The notes beneath the pieces are model-generated. The model had not been told where the DNA came from and ran no database searches. It worked only from the letters and a program-made list of their open reading frames with translations. From Sphingobacterium oryzagri (GTDB lineage: Bacteria; Bacteroidota; Bacteroidia; Sphingobacteriales; Sphingobacteriaceae): a DNA stretch of 64,000 bases. Below are positions 43,575-61,280 of the stretch, one piece after another; position 1 is the stretch's first letter, and each line of letters begins with the position of its first letter. Position numbers and translations under genes: made by a program. The stretch covers positions 2,356,001 through 2,420,000 of the forward strand of contig NZ_CP117880.1 of NCBI RefSeq assembly GCF_028736175.1, given 5' to 3'.

Positions 43575-43590
43575 TTCAATACTTGTGCCA
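43575..43590 (-). promoter_or_regulatory. Sigma-54-like -24/-12 element upstream of the outer membrane protein gene
   Basis: On the minus strand TGGCAC, five bases, then TTGAA gives the sigma-54 layout with an exact -24 box; the -12 box has GA where GC is usual. Transcription would start near 43565, about 50 bases before the ATG. Confidence 0.4.
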
Positions 43591-44001: not shown

Positions 44002-45150
44002 TTATTCGAAATATTCTTTGATGCGTTCAAAGAACGACTTTTCACTTTTACCAGGTTGCGGCTTAAAGTTGGCCGAGTCCTTGAGTTTCTCCAACAATGA
44101 ACGCTCCTCTGGTGATACGGCTTTTGGTGTCCAGACATTGACGTACACCAATTGGTCGCCTTTGTGGTAAGAATTAACTTCAGGCACACCTTTTCCTTTC
44201 AAACGAAGGATTTTTCCTCCTTGCGTGCCTGGATCGATCTTAATTTTCGCTTTTCCATCGATCGTCGGAATCTCTACACTCGTTCCTAGCGCTGCATCTG
44301 CAAAGTTGATGTATAAATCATAGATGATATTGATGCCATCACGTTTCAATGTCTCGTGTTGTATTTCTTCGATCAGAATAATCAAATCGCCGGGAACGCC
44401 GCCGCGTGGAGCCGCATTACCTTTGCCGCTCATAGATAGTTGCATTCCTTCGCTAACACCTGCCGGAATATTAATCGCGATCGTTTCTTCGCCGCGTTCC
44501 AATCCTTCGCCTTTACAGGTAGTACATTTTGATGTAATTTCAACACCTTCACCGTTACAAGTAGGACAGGTACTGGTAGTTTGCATCTGACCGAGGATCG
44601 TATTGGTTACACGACGTACAGAACCCGCGCCACCACAAGTTTTACACGTATGATAAGCCGATTTATCTTTTGCTCCTGTGCCGCCGCACGTATGACAATG
44701 TACTTGTTTATTTACTTTTACCTTTTTCTCAACGCCTTTAGCAATTTCTTCTAAGGTCAATTTAACTTTGATACGCAGGTTAGAACCGCGCTGCACACGT
44801 CTGCCGCCGCCGCTGCGCGCGCCACCGCCGAAGAAACTCTCGAATGGACTTCCTCCGCCAAATATATCTCCAAATTGACTAAAGATGTCATCCATGTTCA
44901 TGCCACCGCCGCCAAATCCAGAAGCGGAGTTGCCGGAATGACCAAACTGGTCGTAACGCTGACGTTTTTCAGGATTGCTCAATATTTCGTAAGCTTCTGC
45001 GGCTTCCTTAAATTTTTCTTCCGCCTCTTTATCATCCGGATTTTTATCCGGGTGAAATTTGATGGCTAACTTGCGGTATGCCGATTTAATTTCAGAAGCG
45101 TCTGCAGATTTTGCAACGCCCAATACATCATAATAATCTCTCTTCGCCAT
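44002..45150 (-). CDS. dnaJ: Chaperone protein DnaJ
   Basis: DnaJ stimulates the DnaK ATPase and delivers unfolded clients. The 382-residue protein has the J domain (residues 1-70, HPD in IKFHPDKNP), a Gly/Phe-rich linker, four CxxCxGxG zinc motifs ([32 protein letters not shown]) and the C-terminal substrate-binding part. It is four bases downstream of grpE. dnaK is not in view, as is common in this phylum, where it lies elsewhere. Confidence 0.98.
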
Positions 45151-45154
45151 TTTC

Positions 45155-45703
45155 TTATTGCCCTATTACCACTTTTGCAAAACGAACCACCTTATCATTT
45201 AAGAAGTATCCTTTTTCTACGACGTCAATCACCTTATTCTTCCAATCTGCCGAAGGCGATGGGATAGCCGTGATGGCTTCTTGAAATTCCGGATCAAAAG
45301 GTTTGCCGATGATATCTTCCATTTCTTTTAAACCTTCTTGCGTTAAGGTCTTGCGGAATTTTTGGTTAACCAGGTCGATACCTTGTTTTACGGACTCTAC
45401 TTCCTGTGCCGTTTGCATCGCTGTCAAGGCACGATCGAAATCGTCCAAAACAGGTAATAATTTGTTTAAAACATCTTTGCTAGCCGATTGAATAAGTTCA
45501 ACGCGCTCTTTCGATGTTCTTTTTTTATAGTTATCAAATTCAGCAAACAAGCGTGCATATTTGTCATTCGCCGTCGCTAAATCATGTCTTAATTTATCTT
45601 CCTCACTCAACGGCGCTGCATTTTCTGTCGATTCATCCGTTGTTGATTGATCAAAATTCTCTACGTTTTCGTCCTGAATATTGTTTTCCTGTTCGTTCAT
45701 CAT
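45155..45703 (-). CDS. grpE: Nucleotide exchange factor GrpE
   Basis: GrpE releases ADP from DnaK. The 182-residue protein has an acidic disordered N-terminus, a long helix (about 60-110: [20 protein letters not shown]) and the C-terminal beta domain with [10 protein letters not shown] and [23 protein letters not shown]. The start is at the first of two adjacent ATG codons (45703/45700). The longer in-frame version from 45745 would run through the putative promoter and is rejected. A sigma-54-like element and TGTCAG repeats lie upstream. Confidence 0.96.
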
Positions 45704-45741
45704 ATCTAAATAGTGTAGCTCTTGATATACCCAAATGCCCT

Positions 45742-45758
45742 GCACAATAATACTGCCA
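45742..45758 (-). promoter_or_regulatory. Sigma-54-like -24/-12 element upstream of grpE
   Basis: On the minus strand TGGCAG, five bases, then TTGTG gives the sigma-54 layout with one change in the -24 box and T in place of C at the -12 GC. It would start transcription near 45732, about 30 bases before the grpE start. Confidence 0.4.
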
Positions 45759-45768
45759 TGACATAGAA

Positions 45769-45839
45769 AACCGACACCCTGTCAGTCTATCCGAAAATAA
45801 ACTACCAAAATGTCGGTTCACTGATGATCTGTCAGTCTC
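45769..45839. promoter_or_regulatory. Repeated TGTCAG and AACCGACA boxes upstream of grpE
   Basis: CTGTCAGTCT occurs twice in direct repeat (45779-45788 and 45829-45838), and AACCGACA (45769-45776) faces TGTCGGTT (45811-45818). The spacing places them 25-95 bases upstream of the -24 box, where activator sites would be. The activator is unknown. Confidence 0.5.
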
Positions 45840-45845
45840 GTTATC

Positions 45846-46526
45846 TTAAATCTCTACTTGGTCATACAAAGCCGTATCAGCGGTTTTGATAATACGTGCA
45901 GGCATATTTTTTATAATTTGATAATCGTGCGTGGCCATCAAAACAGCCGTTCCAGATGCCGCAATATCGCGCAGCAATAACACGATTTCTTCTGACGTGG
46001 CCGGGTCGAGGTTACCCGTCGGCTCATCGGCCAAAATGATTTCGGGGTTATTGAGCAACGCACGAGCGATAACGACACGTTGCTGCTCACCACCCGAAAG
46101 TTCGTGTGGCATCTTCCGCAATTTAGACCGTAATCCCACTTTTTCCAGCACATCAAGCATGCGGTTTTCAATGAGTCCACGTTCGGTCCAACCGGTAGCA
46201 CGCAGCGCAAATTCCAAATTTTTCTCTACCGTACGGTCATTTAACAGGTGGAAATCCTGGAAAACGATACCCAGCTTGCGACGCAAAAATGGCACATCAT
46301 TCTCGTGTAACTTGCGTAAATCAAAGCCCGCCACCATACCTTCACCATTACCGATATAAAGGTCGCCATAGATAATTTTAAGCAAACTACTTTTACCCGT
46401 ACCTGACTGACCGATTAAATAGATGAATTCACCTTGATTGATATTGAGGTTTACGTGAGAAAGCACCAAATGCTTTTGTTGATAAATATCTACGTTTTTT
46501 AATTTTATAACTGTATTCTCTATCAT
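45846..46526 (-). CDS. ftsE: Cell division ATP-binding protein FtsE
   Basis: FtsE is the ATPase of the FtsEX complex, which activates peptidoglycan hydrolases at the septum. The 226-residue ABC ATPase shows Walker A GQSGTGKSS, Q-loop, signature LSGGEQQR, Walker B IILADEPTGNLDP and the H-loop (MATHDY). Its closest relative by look is FtsE rather than LolD (VFQDFHLLNDRTVEKNLEFA). ftsX is not adjacent, which is usual in Bacteroidota. It follows the small gene at 46535 by eight bases. Confidence 0.93.
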   Translation of the reverse strand: MIENTVIKLKNVDIYQQKHLVLSHVNLNINQGEFIYLIGQSGTGKSSLLKIIYGDLYIGNGEGMVAGFDLRKLHENDVPFLRRKLGIVFQDFHLLNDRTVEKNLEFALRATGWTERGLIENRMLDVLEKVGLRSKLRKMPHELSGGEQQRVVIARALLNNPEIILADEPTGNLDPATSEEIVLLLRDIAASGTAVLMATHDYQIIKNMPARIIKTADTALYDQVEI

Positions 46527-59900: not shown

Positions 59901-61280
59901 ATGACAACAATCCTGATTATCGACGATGAGCGGCCAATAAGAAGTTCGCTGCGTGATATATTAGAATACGAAGATTACAAGGTTCTGGACGTAGATAACG
60001 GGCTTGAAGGATTAGAAGTACTGAAGAAAGAGAAAATTGATTTGGTACTTTGTGATATCAAGATGAACAAGATGGACGGTATGGAAGTCTTGACGGCTTC
60101 GCAGGAGATTACCGATGTTCCTTTCATCATGATTTCCGGTCACGGAACGATTGAAACGGCCGTAGAAGCGGCGAGGAGAGGTGCTTACGATTTTCTCGAG
60201 AAACCGTTGGATCTTAACCGTTTGTTGATTACCGTTAGAAATGCTCTGGAAAAAGGTACCTTGGTGAAAGAAACGAAGGTATTAAAGAAAAAGGTTTCTA
60301 AAACGAAGGAAATTCTAGGTGCTTCATCCGGCATTAGCCTGATTAAGGAAACCATAGAACGTGTAGCACCGACCGATGCTCGCGTGTTGATCACCGGAGA
60401 AAACGGATCGGGAAAAGAATTAGTCGCGCGATGGTTGCACGAGAAATCCAACCGCTCAAGCTCACCGCTTGTCGAAGTAAACTGTGCGGCAATTCCGTCA
60501 GAACTTATTGAATCAGAATTATTCGGTCATGAAAAAGGTTCATTTACCTCGGCGGTGAAACAGCGTATCGGTAAATTCGAACAAGCCAACAGCGGAACGT
60601 TATTTCTGGATGAGATTGGCGATATGAGTCTTTCAGCCCAGGCCAAGGTGCTACGCGCGTTGCAGGAAAATAAAATTACCCGCGTGGGTGGCGAAAAAGA
60701 GTTAGACGTAAACGTGCGCGTTATTGCAGCGACAAATAAAGATCTGCTCAAAGAGATCGATGCTGGTAATTTCCGTATGGACCTTTATCACCGTTTGAGT
60801 GTTATCCTCATCCATGTGCCATCGTTAAATGAACGTTCGGATGATATTCCAATCATTGCCTCGAGTTTTTGTGAAGAAATCTGTGGCGACTACAATATGC
60901 CGATCAAAGAAATCACCCCGCAGGCTATGCAAGCACTTCAAGCTCTGCCTTGGACGGGAAATATCCGCGAGCTACGCAACATGATTGAACGTTTAGTGAT
61001 TTTGAGCGACAAGAAAATTACCGATCGCGATGTGAGTTTATACGCAAACCCTTCAAATGCGGGTATACAGGCACAACATGATGCCAAACAGGGCAATGCA
61101 TTTAATTTCGATCAATTTGAGTCCTTCCAAGACTTTAAAGATCACGCCGAAAAAGAGTACATTAATTTCAAATTGGACAAGAATGCATGGAACGTTTCGA
61201 AAACAGCCGACGAGATCGGCATTCAACGAAGCCACTTGTACCACAAAATTGAAAAATTCGGTTTAAAACGCGTAGAATAA
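59901..61280 (+). CDS. NtrC-type sigma-54-dependent response regulator
   Basis: The 459-residue protein has three parts. An N-terminal receiver has phospho-acceptor D52 (LVLCDIKMNKMDG), T-containing ISGHGT and K101. The AAA+ domain has Walker A GENGSGKE (166-173), Walker B-like LFLDEIGDM, and the sigma-54 loop GSFTSA (213-218) instead of the canonical GAFTGA. A Fis-type HTH lies at the C-terminus (NVSKTADEIGIQRSHLYHKI). No histidine kinase is adjacent, so it is an orphan regulator here. Its targets are unknown; two sigma-54-like promoters in this window are candidates. Confidence 0.95.
   Translation: MTTILIIDDERPIRSSLRDILEYEDYKVLDVDNGLEGLEVLKKEKIDLVLCDIKMNKMDGMEVLTASQEITDVPFIMISGHGTIETAVEAARRGAYDFLEKPLDLNRLLITVRNALEKGTLVKETKVLKKKVSKTKEILGASSGISLIKETIERVAPTDARVLITGENGSGKELVARWLHEKSNRSSSPLVEVNCAAIPSELIESELFGHEKGSFTSAVKQRIGKFEQANSGTLFLDEIGDMSLSAQAKVLRALQENKITRVGGEKELDVNVRVIAATNKDLLKEIDAGNFRMDLYHRLSVILIHVPSLNERSDDIPIIASSFCEEICGDYNMPIKEITPQAMQALQALPWTGNIRELRNMIERLVILSDKKITDRDVSLYANPSNAGIQAQHDAKQGNAFNFDQFESFQDFKDHAEKEYINFKLDKNAWNVSKTADEIGIQRSHLYHKIEKFGLKRVE

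Follow-up and report, generated by a model that had tools for sequence, protein, structure and literature searches.

How the chaperone genes grpE and dnaJ are switched on in Sphingobacterium oryzagri was addressed in a window of 64,000 nucleotides (bases 2356001-2420000 of the single-contig 5.17-Mb genome). Elsewhere, grpE, dnaJ, dnaK, and groESL are under the control of HrcA/CIRCE (CIRCE being TTAGCACTC-N9-GAGTGCTAA) and sigma-32, and the original prediction had proposed for this locus a sigma-54 promoter together with an enhancer-binding activator. The controlled genes are thus the same as in those two schemes, whereas the conserved element here is of the -24/-12 type, and no CIRCE was found by reading positions 45690-45850.

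Promoter element, palindromic boxes and RNA hairpin upstream of grpE

The grpE gene (45155-45703, minus strand; Pfam GrpE, 2.4e-41) is directly followed by dnaJ (44002-45150, minus strand; Pfam DnaJ, DnaJ_C, and DnaJ_CXXCXGXG), and upstream lies a gene encoding an ABC-transporter ATPase, FtsE-like by reading (45846-46526, minus strand; Pfam ABC_tran, 6.6e-33). Between the ATPase gene and grpE are arranged, in this order, box 3, box 2, box 1, the element TGGCA-GTATTA-TTG, and the predicted transcription start. The -24/-12 layout ahead of grpE (TGGCAG-TATTA-TTGTG) was found as claimed by direct reading of the minus strand, with TGGCA at 45758-45754, six bases, and TTG at 45747-45745, and the element (45745-45758) has matches across the class. 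In TGGCAGTATTATTG, the GG at -25/-24 is located inside TGGCA, 10 bp ahead of the -13/-12 dinucleotide, as in sigma-54 promoters, and both TGGCA and TTG were invariant in 25 distinct genus sequences, which were chosen for having them. Based on the spacing from this element, transcription of grpE is predicted to start at about 45732, 13 bases past the element and 29 nt ahead of the first in-frame ATG (45703; the second at 45700).

The canonical -13/-12 dinucleotide of sigma-54 promoters is GC (consensus TGGCAC-N5-TTGC), whereas GT occurs at this grpE promoter, and the base following TTG, where left free, was A in 25, T in three, and C in one of 29 distinct class sites. The available text of PMC12316311 quotes the sigma-54 consensus along with mapped sigma-54 promoters that deviate from it. 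Given such deviating promoters and the GT found here, the grpE promoter is described, with high confidence, as sigma-54-like rather than as proven.

Three palindromic boxes of the form CTGACA-N3-TGTCRG, two of them imperfect, were identified further upstream on the minus strand. Box 1 (CTGACAGGGTGTCGG, 45771-45785, centre about -46) has no mismatch to CTGACANNNTGTCRG, and 14 bp (the gap) separate its 12-base core from TGGCA. Box 2 (CCGACATTTTGGTAG, 45802-45816, centre about -77) is a weaker, imperfect palindrome with two mismatches, and box 3 (CTGACAGATCATCAG, 45821-45835, centre about -96) is likewise imperfect with two mismatches. The two CTGTCAGTCT direct boxes of the original prediction are indeed present on the plus strand (45779-45788 and 45829-45838), but they are halves of the palindromes at 45771-45785 and 45821-45835, and plain direct repeats were therefore rejected. 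The palindromes are located upstream of the promoter and in phase with its element, consistent with sites of an enhancer-binding activator, for which they are the presumed targets.

The predicted inverted pair AACCGACA (45769-45776) and TGTCGGTT (45811-45818) was also recovered, with the correction that it doubles as a strong terminator-like RNA hairpin. Folding and RNAalifold placed this hairpin, with the AACCGACA/TGTCGGTT stem followed by a U-rich run, in the stretch 45755-45845 (minus strand), with a folding energy of -31.2 kcal/mol (z -4.47; not reached in any of 200 shuffles). RNAalifold on the 25 genus sequences yielded 16 pairs, six of them with two-sided changes, although these sequences are related and the changes are not independent events. 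The hairpin probably terminates transcription of the upstream ABC-ATPase gene, and its DNA overlaps boxes 1 and 2; a simple terminator scan, whose loop limit was 8 bases, found none. In the groES upstream regions of other genomes (L277-L309), a terminator-like repeat after secG (TGTCAG-NN-TGTCA...TGACA, followed by a T run) was observed by eye to hold box copies in several families, representing the same double use.

Occurrence, spacing and genes of the composite site

TGGCA-N6-TTG alone is not rare (two in the window vs 3.03 expected), whereas the composite of box and element is. When the 142 bp upstream of grpE were shuffled 20000 times with dinucleotides preserved, there were 81 occurrences of the element, 56 of the box, and none of the composite. 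The gap-14 composite had one perfect match in the 5.17-Mb genome, namely the grpE site. Allowing up to three mismatches gave 44 matches vs 31 for the reversed pattern, and thus weak matches in this genome are mostly noise. The sole one-mismatch match was located 44 bases ahead of htpG, and among the 16 of 44 matches inspected no further chaperone genes were read behind the sites beyond grpE and htpG. With none in shuffles, one perfect genomic match, and no match in the reversed class controls described below, a chance origin of the composite was rejected. The other TGGCA-N6-TTG in the window (TTGGCACAAGTATTGAA, 43577-43590, minus strand) is directly ahead of an ORF (43560-42931, minus strand) that reads like an outer-membrane beta-barrel protein, with no box beside it.

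The original prediction had also suggested looking for the layout at the other chaperone genes of the same genome, which held in part: htpG carries it with the one mismatch, and groES has a sigma-54-like element (TGGCATAATTGGTGA) but lacks a clear box at the distance seen elsewhere; no dnaK, lon, or clpB locus was identified in this genome.

Within the genus, the composite was present in all 17 grpE loci read (own included), with a gap of 13 or 14 bp. Box 2 was located 31-32 bp above box 1 in 37 of 40 genus loci scanned (25 distinct sequences), and box 3 was 19-21 bp above box 2, or 30 bp in a subset, in the same loci; the three loci without the box 2/box 3 layout (L238, L239, and L243) had been retrieved on account of other matches. 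When one mismatch was tolerated at a gap of 14, 24 of the 30 genus genomes gave a match, and four of the six misses have a gap of 13, the other two being G018 and G224. The layout upstream of grpE in a further Sphingobacterium record (L319) was identical in arrangement.

Beyond the genus, 12 of 13 grpE loci of other families had a box recognisable by eye, with small departures, at a gap of 13 in 11 cases and 14 in one (L026 being the locus without a recognisable one). The pattern TGNCANNTTGTC-N13-TGGCA-N6-TTG matched 50 times, in 41 of the 198 class genomes, and never when reversed. When the gap was left free from 3 to 33, TGNCA-N3-TGTC/TGGCA-N6-TTGA yielded 99 matches in 76 of the 198 class genomes, again with none for the reversed control, spread over 48 of 120 genera and 38 of 66 families (own count); these sites are not independent, as related genomes are included. 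The perfect TTGA composite was absent from 122 of the 198 genomes, and since the patterns are strict, the genome counts are a lower bound. Only gaps of 12 (8 sites), 13 (68), 14 (12), 21 (2), 22 (2), 23 (2), and 24 (5) were observed among the 99, forming two classes, 12-14 (88 sites) vs 21-24 (11 sites), one helical turn apart. Moreover, G is rare at the variable position of the first half-site (1% of 187 gap-13 sites), which would keep this half-site distinct from the TGGCA of the -24 element.

For 89 of the 99 sites the surroundings were read (nine were not fetched, and L113, a duplicate of L112, was left out), and 87 of these 89 were ahead of protein-quality-control genes, namely grpE (31), lon (15), htpG (13), dnaK (13), trxA (8), hsp20 (4), groES (2), and clpP (1), some of which were identified from roughly 500 bases of downstream sequence and one of which (L156) was assigned by eye. 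The other two had no gene found behind the site (L115) or ended with the contig (L152). A separate scan of named genomes detected at least 120 stretches; among the 80 matches listed, 78 precede such genes (grpE 32, htpG 21, dnaK 9, trxA 8, hsp20 5, clpB 2, and lon 1, part of the rows being assigned by eye), and the remaining two (L335 and L380) end too soon for gene assignment. These 80 comprised 77 Bacteroidota, one Chlorobi, and two without a taxon in the title. A -24/-12 element ahead of chaperone and protease genes, in a layout conserved in relatives, is therefore found here as at the SM4-like promoters of Bacteroidota. The groES gene was identified in 19 of the 40 class regions retrieved as well as in this genome, and these 20 rows, read by eye, often showed a related form, with TGGCA-N6 followed by a -12 other than TTG and with TTGTC half-sites at several distances.

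Candidate activators and alternative readings

The genome encodes one RpoN, carrying the RpoN box motif ARRTVAKYR, and four strong Sigma54_activat (PF00158) proteins. Two of the four are receiver proteins adjoining histidine kinases, and the others are designated type A and type B. The sigma-54 reading of the grpE promoter is supported by this gene complement, by the conservation of element and boxes in genus and class, by the recurrence of the layout at other chaperone and protease genes, and by the start sites with a -24/-12 motif of orthologous genes in Flavobacterium psychrophilum (available text of PMC9723704).

Type A (G000:C1:521624-522880; 419 aa) consists of AAA+ and HTH domains (HTH_8, 6.6e-13) without a receiver, and its neighbourhood, with gene names by reading, is miaB-typeA-lptE-TPR-secG-groES-groEL. 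A type A match at E <=1e-80 was detected in 192 of the 198 class genomes, and RpoN in 187 of 198. From 70 loci, 55 type A proteins were obtained, and their HTH core ELGISERTLYRKI hardly varied, with RTMYRK or RTLFRK in four rows and DLGIS in a few. The match of type A to the PspF-type NCBIfam entry TIGR02974 was below the cut-off, and the AlphaFold model (mean pLDDT 57.5) was left unused.

Type B (59901-61280, plus strand) harbors a receiver, an AAA+ domain with a GSFTSA loop, and a C-terminal Fis-type HTH (HTH_8, 5.8e-7); GAFTSA/GSFTSA instead of GAFTGA characterizes its family, to which the activators near grpE-dnaJ in other families also belong. In ten grpE regions picked for a PF00158 match near grpE (L252-L261), type B was located within about 5 kb of grpE-dnaJ and had no HTH, and the order grpE-dnaJ-ABC-ABC-ppx-type B, with names by reading, was conserved in nine of the ten (L255 is without ppx). 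HTH-bearing type B proteins occur in some other families. The box is unchanged where type B has no HTH, so type A is the better candidate for reading it, and the type B HTH was rejected as the general box reader, being missing in families that retain the box.

Taken from the DNA alone, the reading we regard as probable is that grpE-dnaJ has a sigma-54 promoter opened by an enhancer-family activator on the boxes, with type A as the likeliest reader. RNA polymerase with sigma-54 would occupy TGGCA-N6-TTG and wait, the activator would bind the palindromic boxes along one helix face, with box 1 at about -46 abutting the polymerase and further boxes at -77 and -96, and its AAA+ ATPase would then open the polymerase complex. 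That type A may be the reader is suggested by its linkage to groESL, the conservation of its HTH, which parallels that of the box, and its distribution. With the box in strict phase just upstream of the -24 element, or another helical turn away, the bound protein would be expected to contact the polymerase directly, and so rigid a phasing this close to the promoter would be uncommon in sigma-54 activation. As the composite stands ahead of grpE, dnaK, groES, htpG, lon, clpB, clpP, hsp20, and trxA, the likeliest function of the system is that of a protein-stress (heat-shock) switch; heat as its signal is inferred from the gene set.

Several observations count against this explanation, namely the GT at -12 here and the GA in most relatives instead of GC, the 122 of 198 genomes without a perfect site, and the groES of this genome without a clear box. 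Boxes at -46 are, besides, close for an enhancer. Furthermore, clean co-occurrence of type A and box was not found across the 198 class genomes. G122 (three sites in the TTGA scan, four in the gap-13 scan) and G072 (one site), both drafts, had no type A match at 1e-80, and G128, G144, G158, and G189, which are 65-85% complete, had sites and no RpoN match. Conversely, G048, a strongly reduced 0.49-Mb genome, has RpoN and a single, type A-like Sigma54_activat protein, and no gap-13 composite within three mismatches was found in it.

The same exceptions G122 and G072, the closeness of the box to the polymerase, and the HTH-free type B proteins near grpE-dnaJ in the ten selected regions would fit a sigma-54 promoter at which a different protein (a repressor or helper) occupies the palindrome, with the ATPase supplied by an activator free of a DNA-binding domain, such as type B in the majority of sampled families. 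This alternative is considered unlikely, given that strict phase with the promoter suggests direct polymerase contact, not simple blocking. Less likely still is that type B reads the boxes in this genus via its own HTH; the HTH of the own type B and the extra genus boxes at -77 and -96 are in its favor, whereas the same box occurs in families whose type B has none, and the HTH conserved throughout is that of type A. As to a primary-sigma promoter, the original prediction was right that a perfect TANNTTTG is absent, and although TATTATTG, one base off and overlapping the -12 region, could serve as the -7 box with the conserved elements as repressor sites, this reading is very improbable and was rejected, since the TA of TATTATTG is not conserved among relatives, whereas TGGCA keeps a fixed distance to TTG, and start sites of orthologous genes carry the -24/-12 motif (available text of PMC9723704).

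Returning to the sigma-54 promoter with boxes read by an activator, a more tentative and rather doubtful extension is a phylum-wide split activator, in which type A (DNA-reading) and type B (a receiver protein, often without a DNA-binding domain) would cooperate, and the DNA-bound unit would contact the sigma-54 polymerase from a single helical face, near -46 or an additional turn upstream, without looping from a distance.

Relation to known systems

In F. psychrophilum, SM4 (sigma-54) starts have been mapped at groES-groEL, lon, dnaK, grpE-dnaJ, htpG, clpB, and other genes (Guerin et al. 2021, PMC9723704), and three possible activators were mentioned and none assigned in the available text. 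The likeness to SM4 is the -24/-12 motif at orthologous chaperone and protease genes, and the difference is that the main text of that study, as far as available, names no upstream palindrome, spacing rule, or assigned activator. Similarly, aRpoNDB (Carrera-Reyna et al. 2025, PMC12316311) reports predicted sigma-54 promoters, enriched in Bacteroidota, at the genes of GroEL, GroES, GrpE, DnaJ, DnaK, and IbpA, with a 2009 publication as its reference for GrpE and GroES; in its available text these are promoter predictions from a class matrix, with no operator or activator assigned to those genes. The groEL, groES, and grpE genes are essential in B. fragilis (PMC4072883), no mention of sigma-54 was found in the available part of that source, and nothing on this phylum was found in that of PMC3162934.

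Because the F. psychrophilum starts and the predictions for the phylum are in print, this class of promoter was already known at these genes. As far as the literature was searched, the phased palindrome, the GA variant at -12, and the candidate activators are new, being absent from the open-licence literature, with subscription journals thinly covered. Chaperone switching in this phylum is poorly described, as starts and promoter predictions were found in the same literature and no operator or assigned activator, and with a defined box, its spacing rule, and two candidate activators, chaperone control becomes directly testable.

PspF-type enhancer-binding proteins consist of AAA+ and a Fis-type HTH without an N-terminal sensor, and PspF is held in check by another protein. 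Type A likewise combines AAA+ and a Fis-type HTH without such a sensor, and would therefore probably be restrained by another protein; that chaperone clients titrate this restraint is a conjecture modelled on PspF and sigma-32. In contrast to PspF, the AAA+ domain and the HTH of type A are separated by a long segment, its gene adjoins groESL, and its presumed boxes are far nearer the promoter. Within this long intervening stretch, residues 278-300 or so of type A (P0001) form the conserved segment FSERDILYKVLFDMKKD, at which a regulator might dock.
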